Source of the DNA: Martelella limonii
Lineage (GTDB): Bacteria > Pseudomonadota > Alphaproteobacteria > Rhizobiales > Rhizobiaceae
DNA: 64,000 bases
Direction of reading: 5' to 3'
Assembly: GCF_013344475.1 (NCBI RefSeq)
Contig: NZ_JABUOU010000001.1
Location: forward strand, 868,001 to 932,000
Under the pieces are notes generated by a model that did not search any database, was not told the DNA's origin, and saw only the letters and a list, made by a program, of their open reading frames with translations. Below are positions 1,309 to 20,204 of this stretch, one piece after another. The position numbers were made by a program, and so were the translations under genes. Position 1 is the first letter of the stretch. Each line of letters opens with the position of its first letter.

Positions 1309-1644
1309 GTGTTTACAGATCCCAAGCCTTCAGATGGGCGGGTTGTCTCCCTCATCTTAAGGCGTCGCGGCGGAATTCAGGATCTCTGCCCCGGCGAAAA
1401 GCATCGTCCGCGCCATCATCGTGCGCGACAATAAAATGCGCAAACCCAAATATTGCATTCGCTTTAAGCAAGCATACCCATGCCCATCCCCGAGCATGAC
1501 ACTTTTATGACAGTCATGTGAATTTTGGATAAATAGAAACAAATAGTTTTCGAGAAATATGAAATTTTTACAACAATATATGCTTTCTAGACTTTGATTG
1601 GTATAGCACTCCCGTTTTCAACCAAACCTCAAAAGGGCTATCTG
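1309..1644. other. 336-bp AT-rich pstS upstream region
   Basis: No credible gene is seen. The right half is distinctly AT-rich compared with the rest of the window, contains the Pho box at 1496-1513, and has -10-like sequences such as GGATAAAT just after it. A 61-codon minus-strand frame covers part of the region but has no family resemblance or clear ribosome binding site. This is most simply the regulatory region of the pst operon. Confidence 0.6.
1496..1513 (-). promoter_or_regulatory. Pho box (PhoB site) upstream of pstS
   Basis: The minus strand reads CTGTCATAAAAGTGTCAT: two 7-bp half-sites CTGTCAT and GTGTCAT spaced by AAAA. This differs by one base from the classical enterobacterial Pho box, and half-sites 11 bp apart are the PhoB signature. 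It lies 131 bp before the pstS start. The direct-repeat orientation points away from pstS, which is unusual, so either PhoB acts in this orientation here or a minus-strand transcript exists. Confidence 0.7.
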
Positions 1645-2682
1645 ATGAAAATCGGAAATTTTTCCAAGGGCGCTAAGGTTGCAGTCGTTGCCGCCGCCAT
1701 GGTCTTCTCCGGCACCATTGCAAATGCTGCCGACACGTCGCTGACCGGCTCGGGCGCCTCCTTCCCCTTCCCGCTCTACTCGGCCTGGTTTAAGGATTTT
1801 GGCCAGAAGACCGGCATCGAAGTCAACTACCAGTCCAAGGGCTCGGGCGCTGGCATCGAAGACTTTACCAACCACGTTGTTGACTTCGCAGCTTCCGACG
1901 CTGCCATGAGCGACGAAGAAATCGCCAAGATCGACGGCGGCGTGATCCTGCTTCCGATGACGGCCGGCGAGATCGTTCTTGCCTACAACATCGATGGCGT
2001 CGAAGACATCAAGCTGCCGCGCGACGTTTACCCGAAGATCTTCCTCGGTGAGATCACCAAGTGGAACGACCCGGCCATCGTTGCCGCCAACGAAGGCGTT
2101 GATCTTCCCGACGAAGACATCACCGTAGTCGTCCGCGCCGATTCCTCGGGCACCAACTTCAACTTCACCAACCACCTCGCTGCCATCAGCCCCGAATTCG
2201 ACAGCGCTGTCGGCTCCGGCAAGACGGTTTCCTGGCCGAAGGCTGCCAATTTCATCGCCGCTCCGGGCAACCAGGGCATCACCGCGACGGTCAAGCAGAC
2301 CCCCGGCGCGATCGGCTACATCGAGTACGGCTACGCCCAGCAGACCAAGACGCCTTTCGCCATGCTGGAAAACCAGTCCGGCAACTTCGTCAAGGCTGGC
2401 GCTGAAGCCGGCAAGGCTGCGCTCGCTTCGGCCGAGTTCGACGACATGAACCGCGCCTTCATCACCGACCCGAAGGGCGAAGAAGCCTATCCGATCGCAA
2501 CCTTCACCTGGCTGCTCTTCTACAAGGAAGGCCAGGATGCCGATACGGTTGCTGCCCTGAAGGAAATGGTCAACTACGCCCTGACCGAAGGCCAGGAAAT
2601 GGCTGACAGCCTCGGCTACATCCCGCTTCCGGAAAACGTCATCGAACTCGACAAGAAGTCGTTCGCTGACATCGGAATGTAA
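1645..2682 (+). CDS. pstS: phosphate ABC transporter, substrate-binding protein PstS
   Basis: Periplasmic phosphate-binding subunit of the high-affinity PstSCAB importer, 345 residues. The signal peptide ends at AIANA|AD-like sequence around residue 29. The mature N terminus carries LTGSGASFPFPLYSAW, the phosphate-contacting loop of PstS, and RADSSGTNF supplies the second binding motif. The start is the ATG at 1645 behind AAAAGGG; the frame opens earlier at 1594 without a ribosome binding site. It heads the pstSCAB operon, is followed by pstC after 114 bp, and is preceded by a Pho box, consistent with induction by phosphate starvation. Confidence 0.97.
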   Translation: MKIGNFSKGAKVAVVAAAMVFSGTIANAADTSLTGSGASFPFPLYSAWFKDFGQKTGIEVNYQSKGSGAGIEDFTNHVVDFAASDAAMSDEEIAKIDGGVILLPMTAGEIVLAYNIDGVEDIKLPRDVYPKIFLGEITKWNDPAIVAANEGVDLPDEDITVVVRADSSGTNFNFTNHLAAISPEFDSAVGSGKTVSWPKAANFIAAPGNQGITATVKQTPGAIGYIEYGYAQQTKTPFAMLENQSGNFVKAGAEAGKAALASAEFDDMNRAFITDPKGEEAYPIATFTWLLFYKEGQDADTVAALKEMVNYALTEGQEMADSLGYIPLPENVIELDKKSFADIGM

Positions 2683-2796
2683 TAATAGATCGTTAATGAT
2701 CTGGGCCGGGACGCAGCTTATGCGCCCCGGCTTTTTGACATGAAGCCTACCTCTTTCGATCGCGACCGCGCCGATCAACGACAGCAGGAGCCTTTG

Positions 2797-3768
2797 ATGG
2801 CCGATAGAACGAATACCAACCTGCCCGCCGAAGGCAGCGTTTCTCGACCGCCAACGCCATTCGAATACACCTACGACAAGTCGTTCCGCATGCTCACGCT
2901 CGGTGCGGGTATCCTGACGGTTCTTCTGCTCGTCTATATTTTCTGGAAGATCGGCGGCCAGGCTGCCCCCGCGATGCGCGAATACGGGCTCTCCTTCCTC
3001 ACCACGGTCGAGTGGAACCCGGGCAAGAACCAGTTCGGCATTCTGGCCGAAATCTGGGGCACGCTCTATTCTTCGCTGCTGGCGCTGCTGTGCGGCGGCG
3101 TGCTCGGCATTGCCGTCGCGATCTTCCTTACACAGGGCTTCCTCAATGCCCGCCTCGCCTGGGTCTTCCGTCTGATCGTCGAGATGCTCGCTGCCATCCC
3201 TTCAGTGGTCTACGGTCTCTGGGGTATCTATGTGCTCATCCCCGCGATCCGTCCGATCGCCAACTGGCTGCATGACACGGTTCCCTTCATTCCCTTCTTC
3301 TCCACGAAGCTTGCAGGTCCCGGCATGTTCCCCGCCATGATCGTGCTGTCGATCATGATCCTGCCGACGGTTGCCGCAATCTCGCAGGACGCCTTCCGCG
3401 CCATTCCGATGAAGATCCAGGAAGCGGCCTATGGGATGGGCACCACCAAGTGGGAAGCAATCCGCAAGGTCATCATCCCAACGGCATCGGGGGGCATCTT
3501 CGCCTCGCTGGTGCTTGGCTTCGGCCGCGCGCTCGGCGAAACGATGGCGCTTGCAATGCTGATCGGCAACTCGCAGCAGGTCTCCCTGTCGCTGTTTTCG
3601 CCCGCAACGACGCTTGCCTCGCTGCTCGCCTCGACCTTTCCGGAAGCCGGTGCAAACCAGATCGGCCCTCTGATGTATGCCGCCGTCGTCCTTCTGGTGA
3701 TCACCATGGCCGTCAACATCATCGGCACGATCATCATGAACTACACCACGCGCCAGACCGTCACCTGA
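2797..3768 (+). CDS. pstC: phosphate ABC transporter, permease PstC
   Basis: Inner-membrane permease of the phosphate importer, 323 residues, near the usual length of about 320. It has a cytoplasmic N terminus, a first membrane span around residues 30-55, and a binding-protein-dependent transport domain. The EAA loop that docks on PstB is visible as EAAYGMGTTKWEAIRKV. The start is the ATG at 2797 behind CAGGAG; a longer frame from 2740 is unlikely. pstA follows after only 4 bp, so the two permeases are translated together. Confidence 0.95.
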   Translation: MADRTNTNLPAEGSVSRPPTPFEYTYDKSFRMLTLGAGILTVLLLVYIFWKIGGQAAPAMREYGLSFLTTVEWNPGKNQFGILAEIWGTLYSSLLALLCGGVLGIAVAIFLTQGFLNARLAWVFRLIVEMLAAIPSVVYGLWGIYVLIPAIRPIANWLHDTVPFIPFFSTKLAGPGMFPAMIVLSIMILPTVAAISQDAFRAIPMKIQEAAYGMGTTKWEAIRKVIIPTASGGIFASLVLGFGRALGETMALAMLIGNSQQVSLSLFSPATTLASLLASTFPEAGANQIGPLMYAAVVLLVITMAVNIIGTIIMNYTTRQTVT

Positions 3769-3772
3769 GACA

Positions 3773-4693
3773 ATGGACAAAGACACCATGACAACGACGA
3801 CGGATCAATCCTTCATGAACCCCGAGGCCGTCGCCCTCGGCGATCCCGATCTCAGCTTCTCCTTTGCCGAACGCCGCACGCTCTGGAATTTCATCCAGAC
3901 ACTCATTCTGTGGCTGCTGGCCGGCGTAGCGGCCATCCCGCTGATCTCGGTTCTGTGGATGCTGATCAGCCGCGGCGGGCTTCGGCTCAGCCTCGCCATC
4001 TTCACCGAATTGCCTCCTGCCCCGTTTGAACAGGGCGGAGGTATCGGCAACGCCATTCTCGGCACGCTGGTCATGGTGGTGATTGCAGCCGCAATCTCCA
4101 TCCCGATCGGCGTCCTCGGCGGCATCTACACCGGTCTGCTTAACCCCAACGGCAAGCTCTCCGCTCTCATCCGCTTCGTCGGCAAGGTGCTGACAGGCTT
4201 CCCGTCGATCCTGTCCGGCGTGTTCGTCTATGCCTGGCTGGTGGTGGTGATGAAGACCTATTCGGCGCTTGCAGGCGGGGTTGCACTCTCGATCCTGATG
4301 CTCCCTACAATCCTTCTGACCGCCGAACAGGCCTTTCGCATGGTGCCGCAGCGGATGAAGGATGCGGCCTATGGAATGGGCTGCAATTCTACCCAGGTCG
4401 CCACCAAAATTGTTTTGCCGACGGCGCTTCCCGGTGTTATGACCGGCGTCATGCTGGCAGTGGCGGGTGCATCGGGTGAATCTGCTCCTCTGCTGTTTAC
4501 AGCGTTGTTTTCGAATTACTGGATCGGAAGCTTCACGGAGCCGACAGCATCATTGTCGATCTTGATCTACAATTTTTCGGCAATGCCATATGAAAACCAG
4601 ATTGAACTTGCCTGGACAGCATCGCTTGTGCTTGTGCTCATCGTGCTCGTCTTCAACATCCTGAGCCGATCCTTCGGCACGCGCCGGGTATAG
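3773..4693 (+). CDS. pstA: phosphate ABC transporter, permease PstA
   Basis: Second inner-membrane permease of the phosphate importer, 306 residues with about six membrane spans. The EAA-type coupling motif is [20 protein letters not shown], parallel to that in PstC, and [15 protein letters not shown] near the C terminus is typical of PstA. An alternative ATG lies at 3788. pstC ends 4 bp upstream and pstB begins 17 bp downstream, giving a compact pstCAB block. Confidence 0.95.
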
Positions 4694-4710
4694 GAAAAAG
4701 GTCGAAAGAT

Positions 4711-5532
4711 ATGTCAGCCACCATGGAAATGAACAGCATCCAGAACGCGCCGGAAACCGGCGACGTCGCAATCGGCGTCAAGATCGAAAAGATCTTCTAC
4801 GGCGATTTCCTGGCCGTGCGCGATGCCAACGTGAATATCGAAAAGGGCAAGATCACCGGCTTCATCGGCCCTTCGGGCTGCGGCAAGTCGACGGTCCTGC
4901 GCTCGCTGAACCGTATGAACGATCTGATCCCGTCCTTCAGCCTTGAAGGCCACGTGCACTTCCTCGGCCAGGATGTCTATGCCAAGAACGTCGATCCGGT
5001 GGTTGTGCGCCGCCATATCGGCATGGTTTTCCAGCAGCCCAATCCGTTCTCGATGAGCATCTTCGAAAACGTCGCCTTCGGCCTGCGCCTCAACGGCTTC
5101 AAGGGCGACATGCATGCCCGCGTCGAAAAGGCGCTCCGTCGCGCAGCGCTCTGGAACGAGGTGAAGGACAAGCTGAAGCAGAACGGCCTGTCTCTTTCCG
5201 GCGGCCAGCAGCAGCGCCTTTGCATCGCCCGTGCGATCGCCACCGAGCCGACCGTGCTTCTGATGGATGAGCCCTGCTCCGCGCTTGACCCGATCGCGAC
5301 CCGTCAGATCGAAGAGCTGATGCTGGAGCTGAAGAAGGACTACACGGTTGCGATCGTGACCCACAACATGCAGCAGGCGATCCGCGTTGCCGACAAGACC
5401 GCCTTCTTCTCCGTCGACATGTCGCAGGGCGGCCGCACCGGCTTCCTCGTCGAAGTCGGCGAGACCAAGCAGATCTTCGAAAACCCGAAGCAGCAGTTGA
5501 CCAAGGAATACCTCTCGGGCGAGTTCAGCTGA
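4711..5532 (+). CDS. pstB: phosphate ABC transporter, ATPase PstB
   Basis: ATP-hydrolysing subunit of PstSCAB, 273 residues. Seen directly: Walker [10 protein letters not shown] (residues 53-61), Q-loop [11 protein letters not shown] signature LSGGQQQRL and Walker [13 protein letters not shown]. An AGGAAAAAGG purine tract precedes the ATG. In most rhizobia pstB is followed by phoU and phoB; here a hairpin terminator and an unrelated gene follow instead, so signalling by this transporter must involve regulators encoded elsewhere. Confidence 0.97.
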
Positions 5533-5671: not shown

Positions 5672-6349
5672 ATGTTCAAACACGTACTGGACCTTCAGAA
5701 GATCGAACAGAAGCTGCGCGATACCCAGCGCCAGTTCGATCGCATCAATGCACAGTTGACCATGCGCCGGGACGGCATGCCCGACAGCGTGATCGAGCAC
5801 ATGATGGAAGGTTACGGCTATGTCGACAAGCTTTTGCGCGACAATGTCGACATATTGCGCATGGGCCAGTTCCACCATCTGCTGGAGCTCAATCACCTTG
5901 TGCTGTGCGGGTCCTCGAAGGCGCGGCGCGATGAGTTCCGCAATCATCTCGAACGCACCGAAGCGCATTTCTATGACCGGGAATATGGCGACATCGGCGG
6001 ACTTGTCGAATGGTATCAGCGCCATGCCGGCAAGCCTGTGCGCAAGCGCGCGGCAGGCGTCTATGTCCGGGTCCTCAGCCGCCCGCAGCTCTTCATCGAA
6101 GGCAACCACCGAACAGGCGCCCTGATCATGAGCTACATTCTCGGCCGGGAGGGAAAGCCGCCTTTCGTGCTGACACCCGAAAACGCGGAGGCCTACCTGA
6201 ACCCCTCCACGCTTGTGCGCGACTCACACAAATACTCGCTCGACGAGCTCATCAAGATTCCGAAGTTAAAGCGCTATTTTGCTGAATTCCTGAAGGAAAA
6301 TGAAGACGACAGCCTAATCGCCAAGCCTGAAAGCGTCGAGGCCGGCTGA
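5672..6349 (+). CDS. Fic-fold-like protein with degenerate active site
   Basis: A 225-residue soluble protein. Residues 1-35 are a charged, probably coiled-coil helix. Residues 130-175 resemble the core of Fic/Doc proteins: the motif region reads RPQLFIEGNHRTGALIMSY, followed by a PPF segment as in Fic proteins. Against the canonical HPFx[D/E]GNGRxxR, the F, E143, G144, N145 and R147 positions are kept, but the catalytic His is Gln139, the Pro is Leu140, the second Gly is His146 and the last Arg is Ala150. Known Fic enzymes need that His for AMP transfer, so this is either a pseudoenzyme or has different chemistry. It lies downstream of pstB but behind a terminator, so it may have its own promoter. 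Family assignment comes from motif reading only. Confidence 0.6.
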   Translation: MFKHVLDLQKIEQKLRDTQRQFDRINAQLTMRRDGMPDSVIEHMMEGYGYVDKLLRDNVDILRMGQFHHLLELNHLVLCGSSKARRDEFRNHLERTEAHFYDREYGDIGGLVEWYQRHAGKPVRKRAAGVYVRVLSRPQLFIEGNHRTGALIMSYILGREGKPPFVLTPENAEAYLNPSTLVRDSHKYSLDELIKIPKLKRYFAEFLKENEDDSLIAKPESVEAG

Positions 6350-17028: not shown

Positions 17029-19224
17029 CTAGTTCAGCGGAACGGTGAAGAACAGCGTCTCGCCCGAGCTGTCGTCGACACCGTCATTGTCGGTCACGGC
17101 ATAGGCTGTGCCATCGGCGGCGATGGCAAAGCCTTCGATCTTGTCGACGACGAAGCCATTGGAGGCCGACTTCATCAGCGGCAGAAGATCGGCGGCTTCC
17201 TGCTTTTCTACAACAGGGAGATCAGAGCCGATCGGGGCAGGCTGCATGTCGGAGAGCGCGACCTTGTAGAGCTTCTTGAGCTTTGCCGCTTCGCCGATCT
17301 GGTTGTCGCGCTCGACGATGTAGGCAAAATCGCCGCTGGCGGTGATCTCGGAAAGGCCGACCCAGCCGCTTTCGGCTGCATCCAGAGGATAGGCGACAGC
17401 GCCCCATTCCTTGGTCGCGGGCGTGTAGGCCAGCAACTTCACGAAGCCCTTGTCGTCATCGGCCCATTCGCGCTGGACGGCCATCCATAGCGTCAGGTCA
17501 TCGCCTTCGCCGACCGTGGTGATGCCTTCCATGCCGAACCGGGTCTGGCCCGTAAGCAGCGCTTCGGGAAGCTCGATGGTGTCAACGATCGCGCCCGTGC
17601 CATCAACATGGTAGACGGCGTGCGGAACTTCCTTTTCCGGGTTGCCTTCGGAGGCGAGCCAGAAACCGCCCTTGCCATCGGTCACGATGCCTTCAAGATC
17701 GAGCTTTTCGGCCGGAGCGCCGTCACGGGTGACGCGGATAACATCGGTGATCATCGCCGGCTTCTTGGAGGCATCGATCATGAAGATCGACGGCTGTGCG
17801 GAATAGAAGCTGTCATTGACGGCATAGAGCCTGGTGGCATCCGACGGGTCGGCCGCAAGACCGGACAGCGCGCCGAACCCGATCAGCGGATCGCGCGAAA
17901 CATCGGACAGGATCTGCGGATAGTTCGGCTCCGCGTCCTCATAGGCATAGAGCATCACATGCGCCCGCACGCCGCCATCCGGACCGAGATCGGTCTCGTT
18001 GGCCGTCACCAGCAGGTTGCGATCCGAAATGGCGACGCCGCTTTCCGGCGACAGGCCGGATGGCAGCAGCTGCACGAGTTCAGGCGCATTCCCATCGCTG
18101 TCGTCATAGACGCCGACGACGGAACCACGCTCCGACAGGACAAACAGGTAATCGGTACCGCCGAACGTGCCCTTGATCATGCCTTCGGGCTCGACGCCCT
18201 TCTTGCCGGCGCGCTTGTCCGGGAAGTGGCCGATGGAAGCGACGGCGCGCTCGAAGGAGTTGCCGGAATCGTAAAGCAGTTCGCCGGTATCGGAGAAGAT
18301 CGAGAAGCCACGCGAGCCGCCCTTGTAATCGCCTTCGTTGGAGATGGCGAAACGGTCATTGTCGAGCCACTTCACGCTATCGGGTTCGCGGGCGATACCG
18401 GAAAGCGAGCCGGTGAAATCAAGCTTGCCATCCTTCTCGGTGTCGACGCCGCTGATATCGACGGTGCCAGCCGAGAAGTGGTTCTTTACTTCACCGGTAT
18501 TGCCGTCGATGATGGCGATGCCGTTGTTTTCCTGAAGCGTCAGCACGATCTCGTTGTCGGCATTGATATCGACGAATTCCGGTTCGGGATCGGTGGGCGC
18601 CACCATTTCGTCAAAGCCGGTCATGACGACATGCTTGATCGTGCCGCAATCAGCCACGCCGTCTTTCAGAGAAATGATCACCAGATCGCCGCCGGGCATC
18701 TGCGGCAGTTCGCCGTCGTTCAACTCCTCATCGCGCTCGTTCTCGATGGCGATGGCCACCATCGAGCCATCCGGCGACACGGCAACCGAATCGGGCTGGC
18801 CGCCAAGATCGCACTGGCTTTCGAGCGTGCGCGAGGCGATATCGACCACGCCGAGGAAACCCGACGGCGCGGTGTAGCTTTCAGACGTGTTGACGCCGAC
18901 CAGCGCCTTTGCGCCGGCAACGGCAACCGAGGTCGGCTCGCCATCGAGCTTGGTGATGCCGAGCGCGGCAGGCGCTTTCGGATCCGTGATGTCGACGAAA
19001 CCGAGCGCGCCGAGCGGGCTGTCGGTATAAACCAGCGTGTTGCCGTCTTCGCTCGCGGCAATGATTTCTGCCGAGGTTTCCGTCGCCGGGTCCATGTCGG
19101 CGGGCAGGTTGCCGGCAACGCTGAAGACCGAGATACGGTTGAAGACCGGTTCGGCGGATGCCGGGAATGCGGCCGAGGCAAGAAGCGCGGCAGTCACGGC
19201 CGCTCCGGTAAGACGGAATCGCAT
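17029..19224 (-). CDS. secreted phytase/esterase-like beta-propeller protein
   Basis: A 731-residue exported protein with a signal peptide of about 26 residues (FPASAEP cleavage). Residues 30-430 look like a seven-bladed beta-propeller of the choice-of-anchor-I / LVIVD type (repeated VDI, VAVSPDGSMVAIA, LLVTANE strands). Residues about 440-730 match the 'esterase-like activity of phytase' domain (GFGALSGLAADPSDATRLYAVND, ... LEGIVTDGKGGFWLASEG, ... FGMEGITTVG). Phytase activity is known only for some relatives, so the substrate is open. The ATG at 19224 has GAGGGG upstream. A four-unit Pho-box array lies 51 bp before it, so phosphate-starvation induction is likely. Confidence 0.8.
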   Translation of the reverse strand: MRFRLTGAAVTAALLASAAFPASAEPVFNRISVFSVAGNLPADMDPATETSAEIIAASEDGNTLVYTDSPLGALGFVDITDPKAPAALGITKLDGEPTSVAVAGAKALVGVNTSESYTAPSGFLGVVDIASRTLESQCDLGGQPDSVAVSPDGSMVAIAIENERDEELNDGELPQMPGGDLVIISLKDGVADCGTIKHVVMTGFDEMVAPTDPEPEFVDINADNEIVLTLQENNGIAIIDGNTGEVKNHFSAGTVDISGVDTEKDGKLDFTGSLSGIAREPDSVKWLDNDRFAISNEGDYKGGSRGFSIFSDTGELLYDSGNSFERAVASIGHFPDKRAGKKGVEPEGMIKGTFGGTDYLFVLSERGSVVGVYDDSDGNAPELVQLLPSGLSPESGVAISDRNLLVTANETDLGPDGGVRAHVMLYAYEDAEPNYPQILSDVSRDPLIGFGALSGLAADPSDATRLYAVNDSFYSAQPSIFMIDASKKPAMITDVIRVTRDGAPAEKLDLEGIVTDGKGGFWLASEGNPEKEVPHAVYHVDGTGAIVDTIELPEALLTGQTRFGMEGITTVGEGDDLTLWMAVQREWADDDKGFVKLLAYTPATKEWGAVAYPLDAAESGWVGLSEITASGDFAYIVERDNQIGEAAKLKKLYKVALSDMQPAPIGSDLPVVEKQEAADLLPLMKSASNGFVVDKIEGFAIAADGTAYAVTDNDGVDDSSGETLFFTVPLN

Positions 19225-19275
19225 GGAAAAACCCCTCTGATGCAAAGATCTCTGCGAGGGTTCTGAGCGAGATGT

Positions 19276-19315
19276 GTGACAGCAGGATTACGCAGACGTT
19301 ACAGGACGGTGACAA
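19276..19315 (-). promoter_or_regulatory. tandem Pho-box array
   Basis: Read on the minus strand, four 7-bp units stand exactly 11 bp apart: TTGTCAC, CTGTAAC, GCGTAAT, CTGTCAC, with spacers CGTC, GTCT and CCTG. Three of the four match the PhoB half-site CTGTCAY closely. Two side-by-side Pho boxes in the correct orientation 51 bp before the phytase-like gene predict PhoB activation. Confidence 0.75.
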
Positions 19316-19322
19316 CCCGCAA

Positions 19323-20204
19323 TCAGCGCTCGCGGCGGCGCTCGATCAGCATGATCGAGAGCGACGCGCAGAGGATCATGACCCCGCCAAGCCAGAACAG
19401 GCCGTCCGGCGCATAGCCGAACACCAGCCAGCCGCCCAGCACGTTGAGCGGAAGCTTGAGGTCGTCAAAAGGCTGGACATAAGCGGCATCGGCGCTGGAA
19501 TAGGCAAGCGTCAGGAAATACTGCGCCAGCGCCGTCAGCAGGCCGAGCGCCAGCATGATCCAGATCACCGCGCCGGCCGGCACGGCGAAATCCCCGCTCA
19601 CCGCGACCAGAAGATTGATCGGCGTCAGCAACATCAAGAGCCAGACCGTGATAGATTCCGGTTTCTCGTGCTCGGTCAGGCGCTTCGTGATCAACGAGGT
19701 GGCGCCCCACAGAAGCGCCGAAGCCACCGGCAAGAGCGCGACCCATGTGAAGGTTTCCGACCAGGGCTGAAGGATCAGGAGCGCGCCGGTGAAGCCGACA
19801 GCCGTCGCCATCCACCGCGATAGCCCGACACGTTCGCCCAGAAAAAGCTTGGCCCCGACGATGATGAAGAAGGGCGACGTCATCACCAGCGCGATCGCCT
19901 GGCTGATCGGAACCGAGGCAAGGCCGATCACCCACGCCTGAACGCCCAGCGCGGAAAAGGCAACCCGGATGATGTGCTGCCAGGGATGGCTGGTGCGCAT
20001 CACCGAAAGCCCGGTGCGCCAGAGATAGGGCACGGCAAACACCAGCGCGATGCCATACTGCCAGAAGGCGACCGACGAGGCGGCAAACCCCATATTCATC
20101 GTCACCTGCTGGATGAGAACATTGCCGGCGGCATAGACCACGCCTGCAAGCACCATCCAGAAGGCGCCGGTCAGAGCCGGCGAGCGATAGATTGCCTTTG
20201 CCAT
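19323..20204 (-). CDS. EamA/DMT-superfamily transporter
   Basis: A 293-residue protein of about ten hydrophobic spans in two EamA repeats (residues roughly 10-140 and 150-285), the drug/metabolite transporter layout. Conserved pieces include SQAIALVMTSPFFIIVGAKLF in the first repeat and a C terminus ending in a basic cytoplasmic tail. The substrate cannot be read from sequence. The ATG at 20204 gives the family N terminus; the frame opens at 20267. It lies 75 bp after the LysR gene on the same strand and may be co-transcribed with it. Confidence 0.85.
   Translation of the reverse strand: MAKAIYRSPALTGAFWMVLAGVVYAAGNVLIQQVTMNMGFAASSVAFWQYGIALVFAVPYLWRTGLSVMRTSHPWQHIIRVAFSALGVQAWVIGLASVPISQAIALVMTSPFFIIVGAKLFLGERVGLSRWMATAVGFTGALLILQPWSETFTWVALLPVASALLWGATSLITKRLTEHEKPESITVWLLMLLTPINLLVAVSGDFAVPAGAVIWIMLALGLLTALAQYFLTLAYSSADAAYVQPFDDLKLPLNVLGGWLVFGYAPDGLFWLGGVMILCASLSIMLIERRRER

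Follow-up and report, generated by a model that had tools for sequence, protein, structure and literature searches.

The window, a stretch of 64,000 nucleotides from the genome of Martelella limonii, carries on its minus strand a gene for an exported protein of 731 amino acids, and four short repeats lie between this gene and an EamA-family transporter gene. The features of this region are the following.

19323..20201, minus strand: EamA-family transporter gene, directly upstream of the array and on the same strand
19309..19315, minus strand: predicted PhoB half-site 1, TTGTCAC, 6/7 to CTGTMAY
19298..19304, minus strand: predicted PhoB half-site 2, CTGTAAC, 7/7 to CTGTMAY
19287..19293, minus strand: predicted PhoB half-site 3, GCGTAAT, 5/7 to CTGTMAY, the weakest unit
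19276..19282, minus strand: predicted PhoB half-site 4, CTGTCAC, 7/7 to CTGTMAY, occupying the -35 position
19260..19265, minus strand: -10-like hexamer CAGAAC, 10 nt past the last Pho unit
19232..19238, minus strand: Shine-Dalgarno-like AGAGGGG, 7 nt before the ATG, by eye
17029..19224, minus strand: gene of the 731-aa exported protein, signal peptide at residues 1-25, by eye
17083..17880, minus strand: Phytase-like domain PF13449, residues 449-714, E = 1.3e-57

The four half-sites run from 19315 to 19276 in an exact 11-bp register, and 51 bases separate half-site 4 from the ATG (19224-19222) of the exported protein gene. Direct reading of the sequence confirmed what a sequence-only reading had described, namely four heptamers at this site, on this strand, with 11-bp spacing and 51 bp before the ATG. 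Being matches to a consensus, the units are predicted sites, and the third (GCGTAAT) is weak. The EamA gene is on the same strand and ends before the array, with its stop 7 nt away, so that it is a neighbour rather than a target and the array faces the 731-aa gene alone. The program-listed open reading frame begins further upstream, at TTG 19245; by eye, ATG 19224 was judged the better start because AGAGGGG lies 7 nt upstream of it, and the TTG was judged not to be used.

The four-unit pattern, with up to three mismatches, had one match in the 64-kb window and none in any of 100 shuffles. It remained a single match in the whole 4.54-Mb genome, where the reversed control pattern had none. The two-unit pattern (up to one mismatch) was found twice in the window, compared with a shuffle mean of 0.08, and 17 times in the genome, compared with 7 for the control pattern; two units alone are thus weak evidence, and it is the array of four that carries weight. 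Four units in register are not a product of chance.

The gene was patchily distributed, with an orthologue in 22 of the 61 genomes searched (own, genus, family, and order) and none in the other 39. Within the genus, 9 of 13 genomes (own included) had an orthologue, and none was found in the remaining four. All nine same-genus orthologues kept four units, with scores of 23-26 out of 28, which no mononucleotide shuffle of 95 regions (50 each) reached. Half-site 4 was CTGTCAC in all nine, while half-site 3 in the eight other orthologues was GTGTAAT, GCGTAAT, ACGTAAT or ACGTTAT.

For a wider comparison, 102 upstream regions were collected and 7 were left out (1 masked, 6 near-duplicates), giving 95 non-redundant regions; the named loci from species genomes among them were the best 80 of 536, a choice that favours close relatives. 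In this set, a two-unit box scoring at least 12/14 stood within 200 bp on the gene strand in 80 of 95 regions, and one of at least 13/14 in 53 of 95. At the 12/14 threshold, the controls gave 2/95 on the opposite strand, 0.34% in dinucleotide shuffles and 6/396 before other ORFs, the last being the other program-listed ORFs of at least 200 aa in the kept named loci. Fifteen of the 95 regions fell below 12/14, most scoring 10 or 11: three of the same family (L030, L034, L035), one of the same order (L036), an uncultured Rhizobium, a Hyphomicrobiales MAG, one Aurantimonas, two Pseudochrobactrum, the look-alike L091, Sinirhodobacter ferrireducens, Pseudooceanicola, two Vibrio, and Veronia. Conservation upstream of orthologues had been suggested as a check on the array, and the array came through it both in the genus and in this set with the best 80 of 536 named loci.

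A phylum-wide sample of 299 genomes gave 16 orthologue matches at a strict E <= 1e-150. Leaving out the genome of origin, the box was present in 6/6 same-family regions and in 2/9 outside the family (the start in L143 is uncertain). In a plasmid collection, 32 records had a match, and among the six inspected, those of S. meliloti, Shinella, and Aminobacter passed, while no clear box was seen in those of P. denitrificans, Paroceanicella (annotated start doubtful), and Streptomyces. By these counts, the box is mostly lost outside the family.

The EamA gene was the upstream neighbour in 18 of the 80 named loci (best 80 of 536) and lay directly downstream in two more, with neighbouring EamA proteins 57-68% identical; its linkage with the phytase-like gene is recurrent without a known reason. 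The box was kept in 17/17 loci with EamA upstream and in 48/59 without it (best 80 of 536 named loci), a few loci being too short upstream to reveal an EamA gene (e.g., L067, with 721 bp). Since the box is kept with or without EamA, we rejected the idea that its conservation is a by-product of gene order. One record in the comparison, L091, is titled Bacillus subtilis SK6B4. Its orthologue shares 62% identity with the window protein and begins with the same 12 residues as the two Pseudochrobactrum loci; the assembly is apparently mislabelled or contaminated.

The orthologue regions also revealed a -10-like hexamer. When the regions were aligned on the 3'-most good box, 45 of 80 box-bearing regions (set including the best 80 of 536 named loci) had CAnAAn exactly 10 nt past the last unit, compared with at most 1/80 at each of 26 other offsets tested. 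Over 79 regions, the box held 1.16 bits of information per base, the -10 hexamer 0.58, and the spacer and flanks 0.09-0.23; the box value is inflated by site selection, and the hexamer value is unaffected.

This arrangement resembles PhoB-dependent sigma70 promoters with tandem Pho boxes in its 11-bp direct repeats, in a last unit that stands in for the -35 element and in a -10 at 10 nt. The CAGAAC of the window gene is a poor match to TATAAT. Judged by its letters, the window promoter appears to have the PhoB/sigma70 layout, and the same layout is found before a pstS-type gene of the M. limonii genome. In E. coli, the PhoB box substitutes for the -35 element; of 33 boxes predicted in S. meliloti for which starts have been mapped, 16 sit 22 to 25 nt ahead of the start (PMC3616915). 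Counted by us from the box end, this distance gives a predicted transcription start at about 19251-19254.

A precedent for this regulation comes from S. meliloti. The orthologue in strain Ak57, LZK74_22940, is 64.1% identical over residues 29-728, and the gene order there is lon, hupB, orthologue. Because SMc01905 is listed as LA protease, i.e., Lon (PMC8175422), the orthologue corresponds by numbering to SMc01907; on gene order and locus numbering, rather than on the strain 1021 sequence, LZK74_22940 is probably SMc01907. This gene, a 'putative alkaline phosphatase', was reported to be strongly PhoB-induced under phosphate limitation (PMC3596328). The probable orthologue is thus a known case of PhoB control, and the window gene is a further one. 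The two genes share a Pho box on the gene strand, but the best box in Ak57 consists of two units (CTGTCATCCAGCTGTTAC, at -99), whereas the window gene has four units from -91, and the upstream neighbour is hupB in Ak57 and EamA at the window gene. The Ak57 record CP090106.1 (L146) is titled plasmid pSymB, yet it is 3.7 Mb long and carries clpP-clpX-lon-hupB, and is probably a chromosome mislabelled as a plasmid. Another S. meliloti gene, SMc00620, a 'phytase type of phosphodiesterase' that was called phytase-type by its authors' BLAST and belongs to a phoB co-expression group (PMC8829014), was considered as the orthologue and dropped, as the Ak57 orthologue stands beside lon and hupB.

The exported protein itself has two recognizable parts. 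The PF13449 domain scored 196.4 bits against a curated cut-off of 27.6, and the N-terminal half resembled the choice-of-anchor I family, with PF22494 at 34 bits (slightly above its cut-off of 32) and NCBIfam NF038117 at 117.9 bits (far under its cut-off of 300). The structure model was nearly all beta, with a mean pLDDT of 87.5 for the whole protein and 90.1 for residues 434-731 alone, and as modelled the protein is composed of two beta-propellers, one choice-of-anchor-I-like and a C-terminal one that is Phytase-like. A fold search with the whole model returned generic double propellers among the 50 of 1522 matches listed. With the C-terminal domain, the 50 of 784 matches listed included YncE, paraoxonase and papaya glutaminyl cyclase, none of them decisive; the cyclase had the best TM among the matches listed (0.58/0.68). 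A literature search for 'choice-of-anchor I' together with 'phytase' gave no paper.

The sequence-only reading had further taken phosphate control as support for a phosphatase or phytase role of the C-terminal domain. This claim is weaker than the regulatory one. PhoB control makes phosphorus scavenging likely, and phosphoesterase activity of some kind is the probable function, but such control does not demonstrate a phytase. Run against the PDB with hmmsearch, the family profile gave four chains up to E = 1, none of which was PhoX or a phytase, and 'phytase' is a family name alone, the Pfam name being no evidence of activity. The phytases of three Pseudomonas strains were reported to lie outside PhoBR control (PMC5082522), so Pho control alone does not mean phytase. 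A phytase proper is improbable.

The same search results leave some room for a protein that is PhoB-controlled but serves as a non-catalytic binding or envelope propeller, used otherwise in the starvation response: unrelated propellers alone appeared among the 50 fold matches listed for either query, none of the four PDB chains is a PhoX or a phytase, and the Pfam name says nothing about activity. We consider this alternative unlikely, though it deserves more weight than any other, since the 155 residues invariant across the 22 orthologues, 42 of them Asp or Glu and spread over both halves, fit metal-bound catalysis better than a scaffold. Published annotations also favour an enzyme, as the probable orthologue SMc01907 is a PhoB-induced putative alkaline phosphatase (PMC3596328), and in Nodularia the phosphate-limitation stimulon includes a protein with the product name of the window protein, for which the description is 'atypical alkaline phosphatase (esterase-like activity of phytase family protein)' (PMC9846622).

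The catalytic reading invites comparison with two alkaline phosphatase groups. PhoX is an exported propeller protein. It belongs to another family (PF05787), without a PF05787 match in the M. limonii genome at E <= 0.001 and without a match in the PDB search, and it resembles the window gene in being PhoB-regulated in S. meliloti (PMC3596328). PhoA(aty) proteins share Asp- and Glu-rich motifs (PMC4548154) and were first found in freshwater Synechococcus (PMC11098088). The genome of Synechococcus elongatus, used as a control, had a match to the choice-of-anchor-I family, presumably PhoA(aty), and no PF13449 match; any PhoA(aty) kinship would thus lie in the N-terminal half, and the C-terminal domain would not be shared. 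Drawn from published naming and a family match, the kinship is a lead.

A profile search showed that the M. limonii genome encodes PhoB (344.5 bits, cut-off 296.2). The profile had 31 matches in the genome, indicating many related regulators, and direct repeats with 11-bp spacing are not unique to PhoB, so that another response regulator of the OmpR/PhoB family might act on the repeats. This is very improbable, considering that one regulator alone exceeded the curated PhoB cut-off, that PhoB dependence was reported for SMc01907 (PMC3596328), and that the column-wise orthologue consensus, CTGTCAT-N4-CTGTCAT, equals the E. coli PhoB motif quoted in a review (PMC4415409), although this agreement is partly built in, the sites having been picked by their CTGTMAY score. 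The remaining alternative, a chance match or a functionless relic, draws on the 17 two-unit matches against 7 for the control and is hardly tenable beside the rarity of the four-unit array in both window and genome, the conserved box and the fixed -10 spacing. Chance repeats were rejected on the rarity of the array and on the conservation of the box in orthologues.

Other Pho-related loci of the genome were surveyed as well. A pstS-type gene, under its NCBIfam cut-off, lies ~4.5 kb before phoB on the same 12-kb stretch and is preceded by a Pho box and then, after 10 nt, TAAAAC. A second pstS is accompanied by the following features.

1645-5532, plus strand: complete pstSCAB operon, all four genes above curated cut-offs, pstS ATG at 1645
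1496-1513, minus strand: two-unit Pho box CTGTCATAAAAGTGTCAT, upstream of pstS and in reverse orientation to it

After pstB, an ORF of 225 aa (5672-6349, plus strand) had no NCBIfam match. By eye, two of the two-unit matches in the genome adjoin pstS-type genes, one of them reversed; the first 90 residues of one glycosyltransferase-like protein encoded downstream gave no more than a weak NCBIfam match. The three other PF13449 genes of the genome had no box of 12/14. For the 446-aa PF13449 paralogue at L144:5483-6823, beside ppk- and ppx-like genes (by eye), the 250 bp upstream contained no box of 11/14; SMc00620 probably differs from the window gene in being a shorter paralogue, and going by locus numbering we take this 446-aa gene as its possible counterpart. 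A search of the genome for PhoD was negative. The genome does have a PhoA-type gene, with no unit pair of at least 11/14 in the preceding 300 bp, so the window gene is not the sole phosphatase candidate.

Control of the 731-aa protein gene by PhoB in response to phosphate starvation is therefore the reading that we consider very probable. The box kept in orthologues, the fixed -10, the presence of phoB and the PhoB induction reported for SMc01907 (PMC3596328) all support the earlier prediction that the exported protein belongs to the phosphate-starvation response. We hold with high confidence that a conserved Pho box array with a -10 at fixed distance points to PhoB control within the family, which is ordinary in kind; PhoB binding in M. 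limonii itself is what we infer from these features.

We propose that the gene is a direct member of the PhoB regulon, with the array acting as a tandem double Pho box. When phosphate is scarce, PhoB in its phosphorylated form would occupy units 3-4 at the -35 place and units 1-2 upstream in a head-to-tail arrangement; sigma70 RNA polymerase, recruited by PhoB, would use the poor -10 CAGAAC and start transcription near 19253. Outside the cytoplasm, the exported two-propeller product would then most likely release phosphate from organic phosphate esters. A more specific proposal, which is possible but speculative, is that these proteins form an uncharacterised proteobacterial branch of the atypical calcium-type alkaline phosphatases, with two fused propellers, each having many invariant acidic residues, and a PhoB promoter with a conserved CAnAA(C/G) -10, and that the window gene encodes the main PhoB-controlled phosphate-scavenging esterase of the genome (among the PhoX, PhoD, and PhoA-type genes searched).

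The analysis would firmly assign to the phosphate-starvation response an exported two-propeller protein that is patchy yet widespread in rhizobia and their relatives. The promoters of this family offer a clean model, consisting of a Pho box, a fixed 10-nt gap and a poor -10, with dozens of natural variants. The assignment to the regulon is a clear incentive for enzyme assays on proteins that are 'phytase' in name alone.
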